From: Phyllobacteriaceae bacterium
Lineage (GTDB): Bacteria; Pseudomonadota; Alphaproteobacteria; Rhizobiales; Rhizobiaceae
Assembly: GCA_023954255.1 (NCBI GenBank)
Contig: JAMLIH010000022.1
Location: 1-42,482, forward strand
Direction: 5' to 3'
Length of the DNA stretch: 42,482 nt
The position numbers and the translations under genes were made by a program. Below, one piece after another: positions 20,123-26,506 of this stretch; within the stretch, counting starts at the first letter, position 1; the number at the start of each line of letters is the position of its first letter. Below the pieces are notes generated by a model. It did no database searches. It saw only the letters and a list, made by a program, of their open reading frames with translations, and was not told the origin of the DNA.

Positions 20123-21348
20123 GCTGCCACCCAGGATTGCACGGGCGGCGCGTTCGCCAGACAAACGGGCGCCGGCGCAGGTCTGCATCAACGGTCCTCC
20201 AAGCGCTTCACCGGCAAAATGGATACGCTCCGCCACCGGCACGGCAGCACATCGCGTGAATGGGCCTGCCCCGGCCGGGCTGCGGCATAGGCGCCATGCG
20301 TCCACCGCTCGGATCCCCATCTCGTCATCGAGCCCTTCTTCACCGCCTTGCGGGCGTTCGATCCGAAGGTTCGCACCAGTCTTTCGGTGGCGAATTCCAC
20401 CGCCACGTCTTCGCCCTGGCACTCGATCTCCCAGGCAAAGTCGCCGCCGACAAAGCCGACCATCATCGGCAGGTCGAACGGAAAGCAGAGAAAATAGATA
20501 TCGTGGTGGCTGCGCCGCTCGATCAGCAGGTCATCGAAGGCGGAAAGCCCGAAGCGTTCTCCCTCGATCAGCAGCGGGATCTTGGTCAGCAGGCCCATGG
20601 CGAGGCCGTCGAATGCGGCATCGTAGTCCTCCGGCAGGTCCGGCGAGAACTTGATGCCGCCCATCGCCAGAACGCCGGTCGAAGCCGTGACAATCACCTG
20701 GTCGGCCTCCAGCGTTCCGCGATCGGTTTCCAGCCGGACGCCGGAACCTTCCCAGTGAACCGTGCGCACCGGCGTCGACAGTTCCACCGGCACGTCGGCA
20801 CCCCAGCGATGAACCAGTGCGCCGAACCCCTCCCGGGTAAAATAATTGGGGTCGAGGTCGGCGGCCCTGGCAAAGTCGGCAATCGATATTTCGTCGACGT
20901 CCTGGGCAAAGTCCATCGGCCCGGAAAAGGTGCCTGCGGCATGGTAGCTCCTGGACGATTGCAGCAGTTCCGAGACCCGGTCCGTTTTCGAGGAATAGGT
21001 GACCAGCAGTTCCGAGAACGCCTCTTCCGCTGCCTCCATCTCGGCGATCTGGTCTGTGGTCGCCCTGGTTCGCCCGTAGTAGAGCCGGTCGACACCCATG
21101 TCGTGATGATACAGCGTCCAGCCCGCCGCCTGCGCTTCGGGAAAGAAGGGATTGCGATCAGCCGCATGCAGCCAGGCACAGCCCTGGTCGAAAGGCAGGC
21201 CGAAGGTATCGCTTTCCGTCCATGCCCTGCCGCCGATGCGGTCCATGGCCTCCAGCACCTTGACCTGCTTGCCTGCCGCCATGAGCACCTTCGCCGCACC
21301 GAGGCCGGCGGCACCCGCACCGACAATCGCCACATCCACGCTGGTCAT
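20123..21348 (-). pseudogene. FAD-dependent amine oxidase family protein with a frameshift
   Basis: A flavin monoamine oxidase-like protein. The N-terminal dinucleotide fold is VDVAIVGAGAAGLGAAKVL and the next motif is VLEAMDRIGGRAWTE, typical of the family, with ITASTGVLAMGGI-like substrate-domain text (VIVTASTGVLAMGG). The frame reads well to RPGQAHSRDVL near 20250 and then turns to nonsense, stopping at 20188. The missing C-terminal FAD motif, PVAERIHFAGEALGGPLMQTCAGA, lies in the -1 frame and ends RAARAIL near 20130. One added base restores about 408 residues. The ATG overlaps the stop of the preceding permease gene (ATGA). An oxidase between two permeases suggests action on the imported compound. 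Its substrate is unknown. Confidence 0.78.
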
Positions 21349-22217
21349 GAGGTTGCTCCCATCCGCCGAAGCGTCATGCGGTGCAGCGCTCCGACCAGCG
21401 CAACCAGGCAGGCAGCCAGGATCGCCGCCATGAACAGCGCCGACCAGATCTGGATCGTCTGGCCGTAATAGGAACCGGCCAGCAGCCGCGCGCCAAGCCC
21501 GGCCACCGCGCCTGTCGGCAGTTCACCGACGATGGCGCCGACAAGAGAGATGGCAACGGCCACCTTCAGCGAGGTGAAGAGATAGGGCATCGAAGAGGGC
21601 CACCTCAGTTTCCAGAAGGTATGCGCGGTCGAGGCGTTCCAGGTGCGCATCAGGTCGAGTTGCATGTTGTCGGGCGAGCGCAACCCTTTCACCATGCCGA
21701 CGACGACCGGGAAGAAGGAAAGGTAGGTCGAGATCAGCGCCTTGGGCAGCAGGCCGGATAGCCCGACGGCGTTGAGCACGACAATGATCATCGGCGCGAT
21801 GGCGAGGATGGGAATGGTCTGCGAGGCAATCACCCAGGGCATGACGGACTTGTCCATCGCCCGGTTGTGCAGGATGCCGACCGCCAGCAATATGCCGAGC
21901 GCCGTGCCGATGAGGAAGCCGAGCAGGGTCGCCGACAGCGTTACCCAGGAATGATAGATCAGCGAGCGTTTCGAGGTGATGTTCTTGTTGACGGTCGTAT
22001 CCCACATCTCCACCACCACCTGATGCGGTGCGGGCAGGATCGGGCGTTCCTGTTTCATGGTCGCCGATACGAGTTCGGAGAAGGTGGGCGCGGGCTTGCC
22101 GAGGCGCTCGGCCTGATCGTATTCGAACGGCGCGTTGAGCCAGACCACGCAGGCATACCAGATCGCCACGATGACCGCGACGACGGTAAGAACGGGAATG
22201 GTCTTGCCCTGCGCCAT
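21345..22217 (-). CDS. ABC transporter permease
   Basis: A binding-protein-dependent inner-membrane permease of 290 residues. After a single N-terminal helix (PVLTVVAVIVAIWYACVVWL) comes a periplasmic stretch of about 70 residues. The core TM domain follows: SWVTLSATLLGFLIGTALGILLA, WVIASQTIPILAIAPMIIVVL, LSFFPVVVGMVKGLRS, and the EAA-like loop MRTWNASTAHTFWKLRWPSSMPYL. It pairs with the second permease (19251-20122) to make a heterodimeric channel. ATG 22217 is chosen; the open frame continues upstream only because it runs into the mobile element. The element end at 22222 puts GAGGGG 5 nt before this ATG, so the ribosome binding site comes from the inserted repeat. Confidence 0.92.
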   Translation of the reverse strand: MAQGKTIPVLTVVAVIVAIWYACVVWLNAPFEYDQAERLGKPAPTFSELVSATMKQERPILPAPHQVVVEMWDTTVNKNITSKRSLIYHSWVTLSATLLGFLIGTALGILLAVGILHNRAMDKSVMPWVIASQTIPILAIAPMIIVVLNAVGLSGLLPKALISTYLSFFPVVVGMVKGLRSPDNMQLDLMRTWNASTAHTFWKLRWPSSMPYLFTSLKVAVAISLVGAIVGELPTGAVAGLGARLLAGSYYGQTIQIWSALFMAAILAACLVALVGALHRMTLRRMGATS

Positions 22218-22218
22218 T

Positions 22219-22770
22219 CTACCCCTCACCGCCCTCGCGGCGCTCGGGCACCTCTCCCCTGAGGGGAGAGGACGCAGATGGCCAATACCCGGCTTCCTTC
22301 CCGGCATCGCGCAGTCGGCCTTCAAGGGCTTCTATGATCATGGAAAGCGCCATTTGGCGTGCGTTGAGAATATCGTGGTTCCAGAAACGCAATACCGAAT
22401 ACCCTTGCTTGTTGAGCCATTGGGTTCTTCGGGCGTCCTTCGGACTTTCTGCATGCTGATAACCGTCAGCTTCGACGATCAGCTTTCGTTGTCTGCAGAC
22501 GAAATCGGCAATGAACGGGCCGATGGGCACTTGCCGTGAAAACTTGAATCCATTCAGGTTCCTGTTTTTCAGCTCCCACCAAAGGAGTCCTTCGGCTTCG
22601 GTCTGTGCTTTTCGCAGCTTTCTCGCCCGGGCTGTTGCTCCGGTTGTTTTTGAGACACGGTGAACGGTTGGAGGGTGTCCTCTCCCCCCAAACTTGTTTG
22701 GAAAAGGGGAGAGGTGCCGAGGCTGAGCTTGCCGAAGCCGAGGCGGTGAGGGGGGAAGATCACTCATCAT
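22219..22770 (-). CDS. DUF559 domain (Vsr-like) endonuclease in a mobile element
   Basis: A 183-residue frame whose centre (about residues 45-152) is a DUF559 domain, a small PD-(D/E)XK fold related to very-short-patch-repair endonucleases. Recognisable parts are [39 protein letters not shown] with Asp89, [11 protein letters not shown] with Glu100 and Asp102, and [13 protein letters not shown]. The first 25 and last 18 residues are encoded by the terminal inverted repeats and are low-complexity. The ATG at 22770 overlaps the end of the ABC ATPase gene. No start codon lies in frame between there and the domain. The stop TAG is just outside the other repeat. It interrupts the transporter operon and is probably co-transcribed with it. 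Nuclease activity is inferred only. Confidence 0.82.
22222..22271. repeat. left terminal REP-like palindrome of the DUF559 element
   Basis: The outer repeat CCCCTCACCGCC is followed after 13 nt by GGCACCTCTCCCC. The last nine bases of this form a perfect hairpin with GGGGAGAGG (22251-22259 and 22263-22271, loop TGA). A further GCCC/GGGC pairing frames the segment between. It ends 4 nt from the permease start codon and supplies its Shine-Dalgarno sequence. Confidence 0.75.
22679..22753. repeat. right terminal REP-like palindrome of the DUF559 element
   Basis: CCTCTCCCC (22679-22687) pairs with GGGGAGAGG (22706-22714) around a loop that itself contains the palindrome CCAAACTTGTTTGG (22688-22701). 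The segment between the inner and outer repeats is 23 nt, against 13 nt at the left end, and contains a duplicated GCCGAGG. The outer repeat ends 6 nt before the ATPase stop codon. Confidence 0.75.
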
Positions 22771-23536
22771 AACTGTGCCCCGCTCTCAGCCCGTCGCGCA
22801 CGCGGTGGGCGATCTTGAGGAATTCCGGCGTTTCGCGGATGTCGAGTGGCCGCTCCTTCGGCAGCGTTGACTCGATGACGTCGGTCACCCGGCCGGGCCG
22901 CGGGCTCATCACCACGATCTTGGTTGAAAGATAGACCGCTTCGGGGATCGAATGGGTGACGAAGCAGATCGTCTTGTTGGTGCGGTCCCACAATTGCAGC
23001 AATTGCTCGTTGAGGTGATCGCGGACGATCTCGTCCAGCGCCCCGAAAGGTTCGTCCATCAGCAGAAGATCGGCGTCGAAGGCGAGTGCGCGGGCAATCG
23101 AGGCCCGCTGCTGCATGCCGCCCGACAACTGCCAGGGATATTTCTTGCCGAAGCCTGCAAGGTCGACCAGTTCCAGCGTTCGCTTTACCCGTTCTGCCTG
23201 CTCGGCTTTCGAATAGTCCATGATCTCCAGCGGCAGCGAGATGTTCTTCTCGATGGTGCGCCAGGGAAAGAGGGATGCAGCCTGGAAGACATAGCCATAG
23301 GCGCGGCTCTTGCGCGCTTCCTCCGGCGTCATGCCGTTGACCGAAATCGTGCCGCCGGTGGGTTTTTCGAGATCGGCGATGACGCGCAGAAACGTCGTCT
23401 TGCCGCAGCCCGAAGGCCCGATGAAGGAAACGAACTCGCCCTTTTCGATGTCCAGGTTGACATCCGACAGGGCATGCACCGGCCCGTCATTGGTCTCGAA
23501 AGTCAGCGAAAGGTTCTTGGCGGAAATGACGCTCAT
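22760..23536 (-). CDS. ABC transporter ATP-binding protein
   Basis: The ATPase of the NMT1-type importer, 258 residues, of the SsuB/TauB/nitrate subfamily. Walker A is GPSGCGKTT (40-48), the Q loop is [12 protein letters not shown] (81-92), the signature is LSGGMQQR (137-144), Walker B is [12 protein letters not shown] (158-169) and the switch His is in [10 protein letters not shown]. It drives uptake through the two permeases encoded downstream. It begins 9 nt after the hydantoinase stop. The last codons overlap the start of the DUF559 frame. The C-terminus HSYDE appears complete, so the element landed after the stop codon without damaging the protein. Confidence 0.95.
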
Positions 23537-23545
23537 GCAGACTGA

Positions 23546-25003
23546 TCAAACCCCGCTTGCCGGAATGCCGCTGCGCTCCACCTTGCGCGGTGCGGTAAGC
23601 TCTTTCCACGAGGAAAGCGCCTTGTTGACCGCGCCCGCAGGCTCCCGCTTGACGAATTCGCCATGGCCTTCCTGTGTCTTGATCTCGCCGTCATCGACGG
23701 AGACATGGCCGCGGGTCAGCGTATAGCGCGGCAATCCCTTCACATGCTTGCCCTCGAAGACGTTGTAGTCGATGGCCGATTGCTGGCTTCCGGCCGAAAT
23801 CGTCTTTTCCTTCTGCGGATCCCACACAACGATGTCGGCATCGGCGCCGACCAGGATCGCGCCCTTCCTGGGATACATGTTGAGGATTTTCGCGATGTTG
23901 GTGGAGGTCACCGCCACGAACTCGTTCGGCGTCAGCCGCCCGGTATTGACGCCATGGGTCCACAGCATCGGCATGCGGTCCTCGAGCCCGCCCGTTCCGT
24001 TCGGGATTTTGGTGAAATCGCCGACGCCGAAGCGCTTCTGCTCGGTGGTGAACGCGCAGTGGTCGGTGGCGACCACCGAAAGCGAGCCCGACTGAAGCCC
24101 GGCCCACAGCGAATCCTGATGATGCCTGTTGCGGAAGGGCGGGCTCATCACCCGGCGCGCCGAGTGGTCCCAGTCCTTGTCGAAATATTCGGTCTCGTCG
24201 AGGGTGAGATGCTGGATCAGCGGCTCGCCCCAGACGCGCATGCCCTTCTGGCGCGCCCGGCGGATCGCCTCATGCGCCTGTTCGCAGGAAGTGTGCACCA
24301 CATAAAGCGGCACGCCCGCCATGTCGGCGATCATGATCGCCCGGTTGGTGGCTTCGCCCTCGACCTCCGGCGGGCGCGAATAGGCATGGCCCTCCGGCCC
24401 GTTATTGCCTTCCTCCAGCAGTTTCGCCTGCATGGTGGCGACGACATCCCCGTTTTCGGCGTGAACCAGCGGAATGGCACCCAGCTCCGCGCAGCGCTGG
24501 AAGGAGGCGAACATCTCGTCATCGTTGACCATCAGCGCGCCCTTGTAGGCCATGAAGTGCTTGAAGGTGTTGATGCCCTTGTCGCGGACGATCGTCTCCA
24601 TCTCGTTGAAGACCTGCTCGCCCCACCAGGTGATCGCCATGTGGAAGGAATAGTCGCAATTGGCCCGCGTCGACTTGTTGTCCCACATCTGGATGGCTTC
24701 GAGCAGCGACTGGCCGGGCGAGGGCAGGGCGAAATCGACCACCATGGTCGTGCCGCCGGAAAGGGCCGCCCGGGTTCCGCTCTCGAAATCGTCGGAGGAA
24801 TAGGTGCCCATGAAGGGCATTTCCAGATGGGTGTGCGGGTCGATGCCGCCCGGCATCACATAGCAGCCGGTCGCATCCAGTTCCCTGTCGCCGGAAAGCT
24901 TCGGGCCGATCTCGGTAATGACGCCCTTTTCGATCTTCACATCCGCCTTGTAGGTCAAATCGGCGGTGACGATCGTGCCGTTCCTGATAACCGTGCTGGC
25001 CAT
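23546..25003 (-). CDS. hydA: dihydropyrimidinase (hydantoinase)
   Basis: A cyclic amidohydrolase of 485 residues. It opens 5,6-dihydrouracil or dihydrothymine to N-carbamoyl-beta-alanine or its 2-methyl form, the second step of reductive pyrimidine degradation. The metal motif GGIDPHTHLEMPF carries His57 and His59. The carbamylated Lys154 is in HFMAYKGALMVNDDE, and HAENGD and VVHTSCEQAH supply further ligands, with VATDHCAF holding the catalytic Asp. ATG 25003 is preceded by GGAGG at good spacing; an in-frame ATG 31 codons upstream is rejected. D-hydantoins may also be substrates. The gene lies in an operon with hydC and the importer. Confidence 0.95.
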   Translation of the reverse strand: MASTVIRNGTIVTADLTYKADVKIEKGVITEIGPKLSGDRELDATGCYVMPGGIDPHTHLEMPFMGTYSSDDFESGTRAALSGGTTMVVDFALPSPGQSLLEAIQMWDNKSTRANCDYSFHMAITWWGEQVFNEMETIVRDKGINTFKHFMAYKGALMVNDDEMFASFQRCAELGAIPLVHAENGDVVATMQAKLLEEGNNGPEGHAYSRPPEVEGEATNRAIMIADMAGVPLYVVHTSCEQAHEAIRRARQKGMRVWGEPLIQHLTLDETEYFDKDWDHSARRVMSPPFRNRHHQDSLWAGLQSGSLSVVATDHCAFTTEQKRFGVGDFTKIPNGTGGLEDRMPMLWTHGVNTGRLTPNEFVAVTSTNIAKILNMYPRKGAILVGADADIVVWDPQKEKTISAGSQQSAIDYNVFEGKHVKGLPRYTLTRGHVSVDDGEIKTQEGHGEFVKREPAGAVNKALSSWKELTAPRKVERSGIPASGV

Positions 25004-25043
25004 GGGTTTCCTCCGTTGTATCCCGTAACGCGGCGATGCCGCG

Positions 25044-25259
25044 CTAATCCTTTTTCCGTTTGCCGCGCTGGGCAAACCATCCCGACAATATGGCATACCC
25101 GGCGCCCGCCAGCGCCCAGATCACGACGATCCGGATCAGTGTCATGGCGTCGACCGCAACACCGCGATAGCCGAATTCATAGGCGCACCAGACAGCAATC
25201 ATCACCACCGTCCAGACGGCGCCGTCCATCCACTTGGCGTTCTTGAGAAGTTCGTTCAC
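25044..25259 (-). CDS. small two-helix membrane protein
   Basis: A 71-residue protein starting at GTG 25259, which overlaps the hydC stop as GTGA, so translation is probably coupled. There are two hydrophobic helices: residues about 11-30 (MDGAVWTVVMIAVWCAYEFGY region) and about 38-60 (MTLIRIVVIWALAGAGYAILSGWF). A basic tail, RGKRKKD, predicts a cytoplasmic C-terminus by the positive-inside rule. I know no family for it. Its place between two catabolic enzymes and upstream of the ABC genes suggests a role with transport or with anchoring the enzymes at the membrane, but nothing more can be said. A longer in-frame start at 25322 lies inside hydC and is less likely. Confidence 0.72.
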   Translation of the reverse strand: MNELLKNAKWMDGAVWTVVMIAVWCAYEFGYRGVAVDAMTLIRIVVIWALAGAGYAILSGWFAQRGKRKKD

Positions 25260-26506
25260 TCCACGATCTCCGCCGTTTCGACGACCGCATGAAACAGCAC
25301 ATCCGCGCCGGCTGCGGCCCATTCCTTGGAAATGTCCTCGGCTTCATTGTGCGAAAGCCCGTCGACGCAGGGGCACATCACCATCGCGGTCGGCGCCACC
25401 CGGTTGACCCAGCAGGCATCGTGGCCTGCGCCGGAGATGATGTCCATGTGCGAATAACCGAGCCGCTCGGCCGCATCGCGGATCGCCTTAACGCAGCCAT
25501 GATCGAACTCCGGCGGATCGAACTGGCCGACGATCTCGCATTCGAAGGAAACACCGATGCTTTCGCAAAGCGCCGGCGCCTCTGCCTTCAGCCGCTCGAC
25601 CATGGCGTTGAGGCGGTCGAGCTCGTGGCTGCGGAGATCGACGGTGAAGACGACCTTGCCGGGAATGATGTTGCGCGAGTTGGGATAGACGTCGATATGG
25701 CCGATGGCGCCCACCGCATTGGGCGCATTGTCCATGGCGATCTTGTGCACCAGCTCGGTGACCAGCGCCAGGCCGCGCCCGGCATTCCTGCGCATCGGCA
25801 TCGGTGTCGAGCCGGTATGGCTTTCCTTGCCGGTGATTGTGCATTGAATCCAGCGCAGTCCCTGGCCATGGGTGACGACGCCGATGTCCTTGCCCTCGGC
25901 TTCGAGAATCGGCCCCTGTTCGATATGCAGTTCGAAGAAAGCCTTCATCCTGCGGGCGCCGACTTCTTCGTCGCCCTTCCAGCCGATGCGTTCCAGCTCG
26001 TCGCCGAATTTTTTGCCCTGCGCATCGGTGTGCCGGTAGACATCGTCCTGCTCCAGCACGCCGGCGAAGACGCCCGATGCCATCATGGCCGGCGCAAAGC
26101 GCGTGCCTTCCTCATTCGTCCAGTTGGTAACGACGATGGGATGCTTCGTCTTGATGTTGAGGTCGTTGAGGGTGCGGACGACTTCGAGCCCCGCTAGCAC
26201 GCCCAGCACGCCGTCATAGCGCCCGCCGGTCGGCTGCGTGTCGAGGTGCGATCCGACATAGACGGGCAGGGCATCGGGGTCGGTGCCGGGCCGCGTCATG
26301 AACATGGTGCCCATCTGGTCGACGCCCATGCTGCAGCCGGCTTCCTCGCACCATTTCTGGAACAGCCGGCGCCCTTCGCCATCCTCGTCGGTGACTGTCT
26401 GGCGGTTCGATCCGCCGGCAATCCCGGGGCCGATCTCGGCCATTTCGTGGATCGAATCCCAGAGCCGGTCGCCGTTGATCTTCAGGTTCTCGCCTGGCGC
26501 TGCCAT
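25256..26506 (-). CDS. hydC: N-carbamoyl-beta-alanine / N-carbamoyl-amino-acid amidohydrolase
   Basis: An M20-family Zn-dependent hydrolase of 416 residues (beta-ureidopropionase / allantoate amidohydrolase group). It cleaves the carbamoyl group from N-carbamoyl-beta-alanine to give beta-alanine, CO2 and ammonia, the third step of pyrimidine breakdown. The dinuclear metal site is VGSHLDTQPTGGRYDGVLGV (His87, Asp98) and NWTNEEGTRFAP (Glu132-Glu133). ELHIEQGPILE follows, then the dimerisation lid. GGAGGAAGG precedes the ATG. Neighbouring hydA, preA and preT favour the beta-alanine role over allantoate, although the sequence alone does not separate these. Confidence 0.92.
   Translation of the reverse strand: MAAPGENLKINGDRLWDSIHEMAEIGPGIAGGSNRQTVTDEDGEGRRLFQKWCEEAGCSMGVDQMGTMFMTRPGTDPDALPVYVGSHLDTQPTGGRYDGVLGVLAGLEVVRTLNDLNIKTKHPIVVTNWTNEEGTRFAPAMMASGVFAGVLEQDDVYRHTDAQGKKFGDELERIGWKGDEEVGARRMKAFFELHIEQGPILEAEGKDIGVVTHGQGLRWIQCTITGKESHTGSTPMPMRRNAGRGLALVTELVHKIAMDNAPNAVGAIGHIDVYPNSRNIIPGKVVFTVDLRSHELDRLNAMVERLKAEAPALCESIGVSFECEIVGQFDPPEFDHGCVKAIRDAAERLGYSHMDIISGAGHDACWVNRVAPTAMVMCPCVDGLSHNEAEDISKEWAAAGADVLFHAVVETAEIVE

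Follow-up and report, generated by a model that had tools for sequence, protein, structure and literature searches.

A 532-bp unit (22222-22753) with folded repeats at both ends lies between an ABC transporter ATPase gene and its permease gene in the window analyzed here, a contig of 42,482 nucleotides from a Phyllobacteriaceae bacterium (JAMLIH010000022.1). What is this unit, and what could mobilise it? The earlier note on this DNA offered two options, an undescribed partnership between REPs and a nuclease, or a REP pair captured by a nuclease gene. We read the unit as the former, a partnership that works like REP-RAYT with an unrelated enzyme and in which the DUF559 nuclease would be the mobiliser. 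The unit is thus probably one copy of a nuclease-REP element, i.e., a DUF559 endonuclease gene bracketed by its own REP hairpins. The family of this element also exists as gene-less REPs and REP pairs.

The unit fits tightly between its neighbors, as the earlier note had described. It ends 6 bp from the stop codon (22760-22762) of the ATPase gene (22760-23536, minus strand, PF00005), which is its upstream neighbor, and 4 bp from the ATG (22215-22217) of the downstream permease gene (21345-22217, minus strand, PF00528). The copy would have inserted between two genes of one operon, and neither gene is broken. A GAGGGG stretch left by a REP tail directly ahead of the permease ATG could serve the permease as a ribosome site. 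Both ends of the unit fold as DNA, each into a REP of two hairpins, which bears out the proposal that each end forms its own hairpin. The REP on the 3' side of DUF559 (22222-22273, minus strand) comprises stem A (22251-22271), a second GC stem, and a tail GGTGAGGGG that ends at 22222. The REP on the 5' side (22677-22753, plus strand) comprises stem A (22679-22714), with 9-nt arms and an 18-nt loop that itself folds, a second stem, and a GGTGAGGGG tail reaching to about 22753. One fold shape is hence common to both ends: the stem CCTCTCCCC/GGGGAGAGG, which begins with GC pairs, the second GC stem, and the tail. The fold z of the ends ranges from -2.1 to -3.2, and equally good folds were obtained in 0 to 4 of 200 shuffles.

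The two ends also match each other in inverted orientation. The outer inverted repeat pairs CCCCTCACCGCC (22222-22233) with GGCGGTGAGGGG (22742-22753) at 100% identity over 12 nt, and the inner one pairs GGCACCTCTCCCCT (22247-22260) with AGGGGAGAGGTGCC (22705-22718) at 100% identity over 14 nt. Perfect pairs of 12 and 13 bp had been announced for this unit: the first has the length given, the second is one nucleotide longer. A third inverted pair (22260-22273/22677-22690) has 93% identity. When the geometry of the unit was applied to 1134 positions of the window, matches of at least 12 nt arose at two of them, both within the unit. No target-site duplication is visible at the window site. Within the unit and 10 bp beyond it, GTAG occurs only at 22219-22222, which is the outer margin of one arm rather than the foot of a hairpin, and it is absent from the other arm.

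The sole cargo of the unit is one DUF559 gene, as had been claimed. An open frame of 183 aa (22219-22770, minus strand), of which both ends are REP sequence, contains the DUF559 nuclease domain (22324-22635, minus strand), matched by the Pfam profile PF04480 with E 3.7e-38 and 130.2 bits, relative to a curated cut-off of 20.6. Residues that are invariant in an alignment of 11 sequences, e.g., E60, D89, E100, D102, H106, D112, and R115, are kept in the window copy. The frame has only two ATGs 5' of the domain, adjacent to each other and within the final codons of the ATPase. The open frames of related DUF559 proteins have repeat-coded tails of the SPLAGEG type at their ends. Pfam recognized neither a DDE nor another transposase in the frame of the unit, its matches being limited to DUF559 and to an REase model below threshold, and the NCBIfam Vsr model scored 12.3 bits, below its cut-off of 97.85. 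A search of the unit with Rfam returned two matches, both far under the gathering scores, PADLOC gave a single weak match (E 0.05), and PHROGs gave one endonuclease family (E 1.9e-5).

The structure model of the window protein is of good quality over the domain (pLDDT mostly near 90; mean of 75). Its sole Foldseek match below E 0.001 is the DUF559 structure 3hrl of N. gonorrhoeae (E 1.2e-7). A mitoribosome protein ranks second (E 1.2e-3), followed by the catalytic domain of the homing endonuclease I-Bth0305I (3r3p_B; E 2.5e-3, probability 1.0), with a TM-score of 0.73 by target length and 0.41 by query length. The Vsr structures 1cw0 and 1vsr match more weakly (E 0.14-0.15). As modeled, the DUF559 fold resembles that of I-Bth0305I.

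Is the bracketing by REPs particular to this locus? PF04480 is present in 92 of the 199 genomes of the host's order. From this order we took 91 of the best-scoring DUF559 loci of a longer list, and 82 of them had full flanks of 300 bp, the other nine being left out of the flank counts for having a contig end within that distance. With a hairpin pattern derived, together with the three stem classes used below, from the first loci examined, a REP hairpin was found within 300 bp of DUF559 in 78 of the 82 loci (both sides in 56, one side in 22, none in 4). The same pattern was found beside none of 30 Vsr genes among the matches listed. When the DUF559 loci were shifted by 1-2 kb, in six controls, there were no two-sided hairpins, and one-sided ones occurred at 0-4 of 53-84 loci. 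Exact inverted repeats of at least 12 nt join the flanks of 57 of the 82 DUF559 loci, of 0 of the 30 Vsr loci, and of 1-4 of 54-85 shifted loci. At a length of at least 14 nt, they are found at 47 of the 82 DUF559 loci but at no Vsr or shifted control locus. The perfect arms reach 57 nt among the DUF559 loci of the order. Both tails were readable at 27 loci: in 21 they are directed toward the gene, in 4 they share one orientation, and in 2, among them the atypical window copy, they are directed outward.

The association extends beyond the host's class, where a hairpin was found at 14 of the 16 DUF559 loci among the matches listed, a count that comes without a control set. In E. coli K-12, repeats of the kind CCCCTCACCC..CCTCTCCCC lie near ycjD (L142:5164-5821), their similarity being judged by eye. 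The earlier note had expected the same end repeats around diverged DUF559 copies if the partnership exists, and DUF559 homologues lacking them if it does not. The counts in the order and outside the class agree with the first expectation, and homologues of the second kind are few.

The number of REPs in a genome is also tied to DUF559. We counted hairpins with one pattern over the 199 genomes and called strong the DUF559 matches with E < 1e-20. The median number of hairpins per genome is 51 in genomes with strong DUF559 (n=74), 2.5 in those with weak matches (n=18), and 0 in those without a match (n=107; p 5e-25 for strong relative to none). Among the families that have both kinds of genomes, DUF559 carriers have more hairpins in 16, fewer in 1, and are tied in 1; among such genera, the figures are 10, 2, and 1. 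Shuffling the DUF559 status within families, with the 18 weak genomes set aside, reached the observed difference in 0 of 5000 shuffles, and the same test gave 347 of 5000 for Vsr and 74 of 5000 for Y1_Tnp. There are exceptions: 5 of the 74 carriers have fewer than 5 hairpins and 9 of the 107 non-carriers have at least 10. The window's own genome, one of these five carriers, is REP-poor for a DUF559 carrier, with 4 hairpin matches. It has a second DUF559 gene (C64:34432-34877), on a contig that ends inside the repeat, and a REP arm of this gene is nearly identical to an arm of a gene-less REP pair elsewhere in the same genome (C96:69262-69398). Repeats occurring everywhere regardless of DUF559 had been named as grounds for giving up the partnership, and the medians in genomes with and without the gene run against this.

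We sorted the REP hairpins by stem into three ad hoc classes and compared them with the kinship of the nucleases. In 54 of 81 cases, a DUF559 gene shares its REP class with its nearest kin in another host family, 10 of the 91 loci being left out for having no class or a mixed one; the mean of the shuffles is 30 and 0 of 1000 reach 54. The match is weak inside single genomes (25 of 49, relative to 18 expected, with 84 of 1000 shuffles as high). The match across families fits either the recognition of the REP by the nuclease or a joint transfer of the two. In one genus, the junction between dnaN and recF (names assigned by Pfam) contains DUF559 at 30 of the 30 loci among the matches listed. The median dN/dS of these DUF559 genes is 0.08, computed from 72 usable pairs of 253 among the 23 full-length loci with an intact domain, a sample that excludes the other 7 loci, which had partial or split matches. 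By this measure, the DUF559 genes at the dnaN-recF site are under purifying selection.

The earlier note had also looked to relatives for alleles lacking the unit. Such empty sites occur at the operon junction of the window and at a site in genus g3. The operon loci come from the best 30 of 101 genomes, i.e., 29 besides the window's own, and the permease lies downstream of the ATPase in 26 of these 29 loci of the window's family. We regard four of them (G202, G208, G199, and G273) as empty sites because ATPase and permease adjoin within a few bases, and in nine the gap between the two genes has a REP hairpin. In G000, G267, G215, and G227, DUF559 occupies the ATPase-permease junction; in G201 and G280, it is found between hydantoinase and ATPase; and in a Shinella, it separates carbamoylase from hydantoinase. 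Among the matches listed, the closest relative (68%) is at a different junction of this operon. The junctions of the operon (21345-26506) and its relatives are an insertion hot spot, with DUF559 at three junctions in different genera. At the ATPase-permease junction, several relatives carry inserts other than DUF559, including the genus-mate G236, where the other sequence is without a REP hairpin. In Sinorhizobium, a block composed of a REP pair, DUF559, and a REP pair parts two genes that adjoin in Shinella.

The site of genus g3, which is filled in G136, was studied in 20 stretches without DUF559; these, and 20 dnaN-recF stretches, were picked from genomes with split matches or without the element. 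Two alleles are short and free of REPs (31 and 66 bp). Three have a lone REP, which in two of them is by eye like one arm of the G136 element, and 8 of the 20 stretches have gene-less REP pairs. Five stretches have around 585 bp of other sequence, one has such sequence together with a REP pair, and one has a degenerate hairpin. No clear target-site duplication emerged. The REP pair present in these eight copies is compatible with one of TTCA, but the copies count as one event because all are at one orthologous site. Such an allele series was found in two genera. Filled and empty sites were compared between species and without tree-based polarity, so that the series may reflect loss as well as gain.

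Some candidate sites were rejected. The E. coli ycjD locus does not provide a clean empty site: in the four strains examined with the other allele, TetR and efflux genes stand next to fabI, and in the one of them that was followed as far as sapF, an ST131 strain, an efflux operon fills the place of ycjD between these two genes. The K-12 ycjD segment is held to at least 80% by 3333 of 5426 E. coli genomes. Azospirillum Sp7 was considered as lacking the REP pair, and its locus turned out to be 99.98% identical to that of MTCC4038. The REP pairs of S. meliloti pSymB, considered as recent insertions, are ancestral, and Rm41 has lost one REP. In its pSymB (L217), the loss of around 50 bp turned a REP pair into a single REP. 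Loss within a REP pair can thus be one route by which lone REPs arise. Since the REP pairs on this replicon look old and stable, nuclease-REP activity may be rare.

How would the nuclease spread these repeats? In the mechanism we propose, the DUF559 nuclease would recognize the REP (stem A, second stem, and GGTGAGGGG tail) and nick or cut the DNA at or beside it, either as a single-stranded hairpin or as a duplex. Host repair would then copy a REP, a REP pair, or a REP-gene-REP block into the break, and gene-less REPs would be moved in trans. Such a homing-like route fits better than transposition because there is no tyrosine or DDE strand-transfer enzyme present. Since the repeats recur at diverged loci, relatives have empty sites, homologues without repeats are few, and the repeats do not occur regardless of the gene, the undescribed partnership is the better of the two options first considered. 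If true, it would give a role to DUF559, a large family of unknown function, and would explain the repeat-coded ends of the frames. It also provides a REP class with a clear enzyme candidate, so that experiments combining the purified protein with REP oligonucleotides can address the question.

DUF559 could instead be a functional partner of the REPs, one that binds or trims their hairpins without mobilising them, for example in a Vsr-like repair of structured or mismatched DNA. The REPs would then be its substrate or a regulatory site and would multiply by replication slippage and recombination. We consider this unlikely. It would agree with the weak match of the modeled fold to Vsr and with the apparent stability of the S. 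meliloti REP pairs. It would also agree with the available part of a study of the Caulobacter DUF559 protein VsrA, where it is treated as Vsr-like, with a predicted role as an endonuclease of mismatch repair, and where a DNA damage response requires it when a methyltransferase is missing (PMC12907096). However, a repair role would predict neither the two-sided inverted REP brackets, nor the match of REP class across host families, nor the presence of blocks at sites empty elsewhere and at different junctions, and Vsr itself lacks such REPs at every locus of the comparison set.

It is also conceivable, with a rather low probability, that another agent moves the REPs and that DUF559 is a cargo sometimes caught between two of them. 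The window copy does look like a cargo inside its tail-out REP pair, and insertion sequences are reported to target REPs, in the accessible portion of one article (PMC1525189). Yet a passenger should be one of a mixed set, whereas at the sampled loci DUF559 is nearly always beside REPs and Vsr never is, and the number of REPs depends on the presence of DUF559. Small GIY-YIG genes are also found in repeats, and DUF559 is therefore not the sole gene so placed.

The spread of these REPs by RAYT (TnpA-REP) transposases, with DUF559 as an incidental neighbor, is very improbable. Y1_Tnp, present in 33 of the 199 genomes, has a weak link to REP number within families, as given by the shuffles above. 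However, genomes with strong DUF559 and without Y1_Tnp have a median of 40 hairpins (n=61), and those with Y1_Tnp and without DUF559 a median of 0 (n=19). The genome of the window, at 91.8% completeness, yielded no Y1 transposase (PF01797), and the hairpin foot is devoid of the GTAG motif. Finally, the hairpins are GC-rich and intergenic, as terminators of GC-rich genomes lying near DUF559 by chance would be, but the shifted and Vsr controls, the counts with reversed patterns, and the length of the perfect arms leave this explanation with practically no probability.

The GIY-YIG genes extend the nuclease-REP reading to another enzyme. Seven of the 20 dnaN-recF stretches (L260-L263 and L265-L267) have a GIY-YIG gene, identified as such by Pfam in the one of the seven that was checked, inside inverted TGTCATTGCCGGGCTTGACCCGGCAATCCA repeats, at a site where other species of the same genus carry DUF559 between its REPs. 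This looks like a second nuclease-REP partnership. We collected 30 GIY-YIG loci among the matches listed, and 13 of the 26 with full flanks have an inverted pair of at least 12 nt, relative to 2 of 49 shifted loci. Palindromes with a CGTC tag were seen at at least three of the seven GIY-YIG loci inspected. The genes at L270, L274, L283, and L298 are flanked by CGTC- or TGTC-tagged palindromes, e.g., TTCGTCATTCCGGCGAAAGCCGGAATCCAG, and the one at L288 by another type of repeat, CACCTCAGGATGAGGT.

These observations tentatively suggest a general class of nuclease-driven REP elements apart from RAYT, although we lean slightly against so broad a claim. It would include at least two unrelated nuclease families, DUF559 with REPs of CYYCYCCC stem and GGTGAGGGG tail, and small GIY-YIG with CGTC-tagged REPs, which would spread by cutting and repair-copying with no transposase. 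If true, this would answer what moves CGTC and RIME-like repeats, and such elements would form a major group of selfish DNA that has stayed hidden in Proteobacteria. In the available part of an evolution experiment, mutation and rearrangement hotspots included the surroundings of GIY-YIG genes and segments containing both a transposase and a DUF559 gene, and pairs of such sites were joined in 44% of 61 long-range structural variants (PMC12308824). As far as this account goes, the hotspots speak independently for the capacity of such loci to be active, the transposase in the DUF559 segments being an alternative cause there.

How does the unit compare with known systems? MITEs and insertion sequences resemble it by their terminal inverted repeats, which the unit has, by their gene-less short forms, and by their empty sites, but the unit is without a DDE or HUH transposase. 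The Vsr mismatch endonuclease has a weakly similar fold, but its loci are without REPs and its model falls below the cut-off. The nearest characterized nuclease fold besides DUF559 itself, as far as the structure model tells, is that of I-Bth0305I, which we take to be an EDxHD homing endonuclease and which suggests a cut-and-repair route. In contrast to it, DUF559 is here free-standing and bracketed by REPs, with no intron or intein setting shown. REP pairs of the CCTTCTCCCC/GGATGAGGGG kind are found in the intergenic DNA of Sinorhizobium, and we presume that they are the Rhizobium intergenic mosaic elements (RIME). RIME and the S. meliloti REPs are like our elements in being REP pairs in intergenic DNA, with no link to DUF559 in the literature searched.

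Bacterial genomes commonly contain REPs, and the CGTC REPs among them are short palindromes, mostly in head-to-head pairs and mostly in Alphaproteobacteria, with no dedicated transposase known for the superfamily in 2013, according to the accessible text of one study (PMC3733652). Their definition there includes a CGTC, TGTC, or CCTC tag, a stem of 8-9 bp starting with AT pairs, and a CCA tail. The REPs of the unit depart from it by their GC-started stem and GGTGAGGGG tail, whereas the CGTC- and TGTC-tagged repeats of our data were seen beside GIY-YIG genes. An open-access literature search, with most subscription journals outside its scope, returned no work linking DUF559 or GIY-YIG with REPs, and the words nuclease, RAYT, and transposase are absent from the available part of a 2025 REP survey (PMC12306157).

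The closest parallel is REP-RAYT (REPtron/REPIN), where a nuclease gene is also flanked by REPs and where there are many gene-less REPs, often in inverted pairs, as we found in the window's genome and in genus g3. The enzyme is there an HUH tyrosine transposase and here a PD-(D/E)XK-type DUF559 nuclease; GTAG stands there at the hairpin foot, and the unit does without it; and the Y1_Tnp of those systems has no counterpart among the matches in the window's genome. REP number is tied to DUF559 in our data, whereas tyrosine transposase genes and REP families are described as having no obvious correlation, in the part of the source available (PMC3733652). Since both the HUH enzyme and the GTAG at the hairpin foot fail, the unit is not a member of REP-RAYT, though it would work alike.
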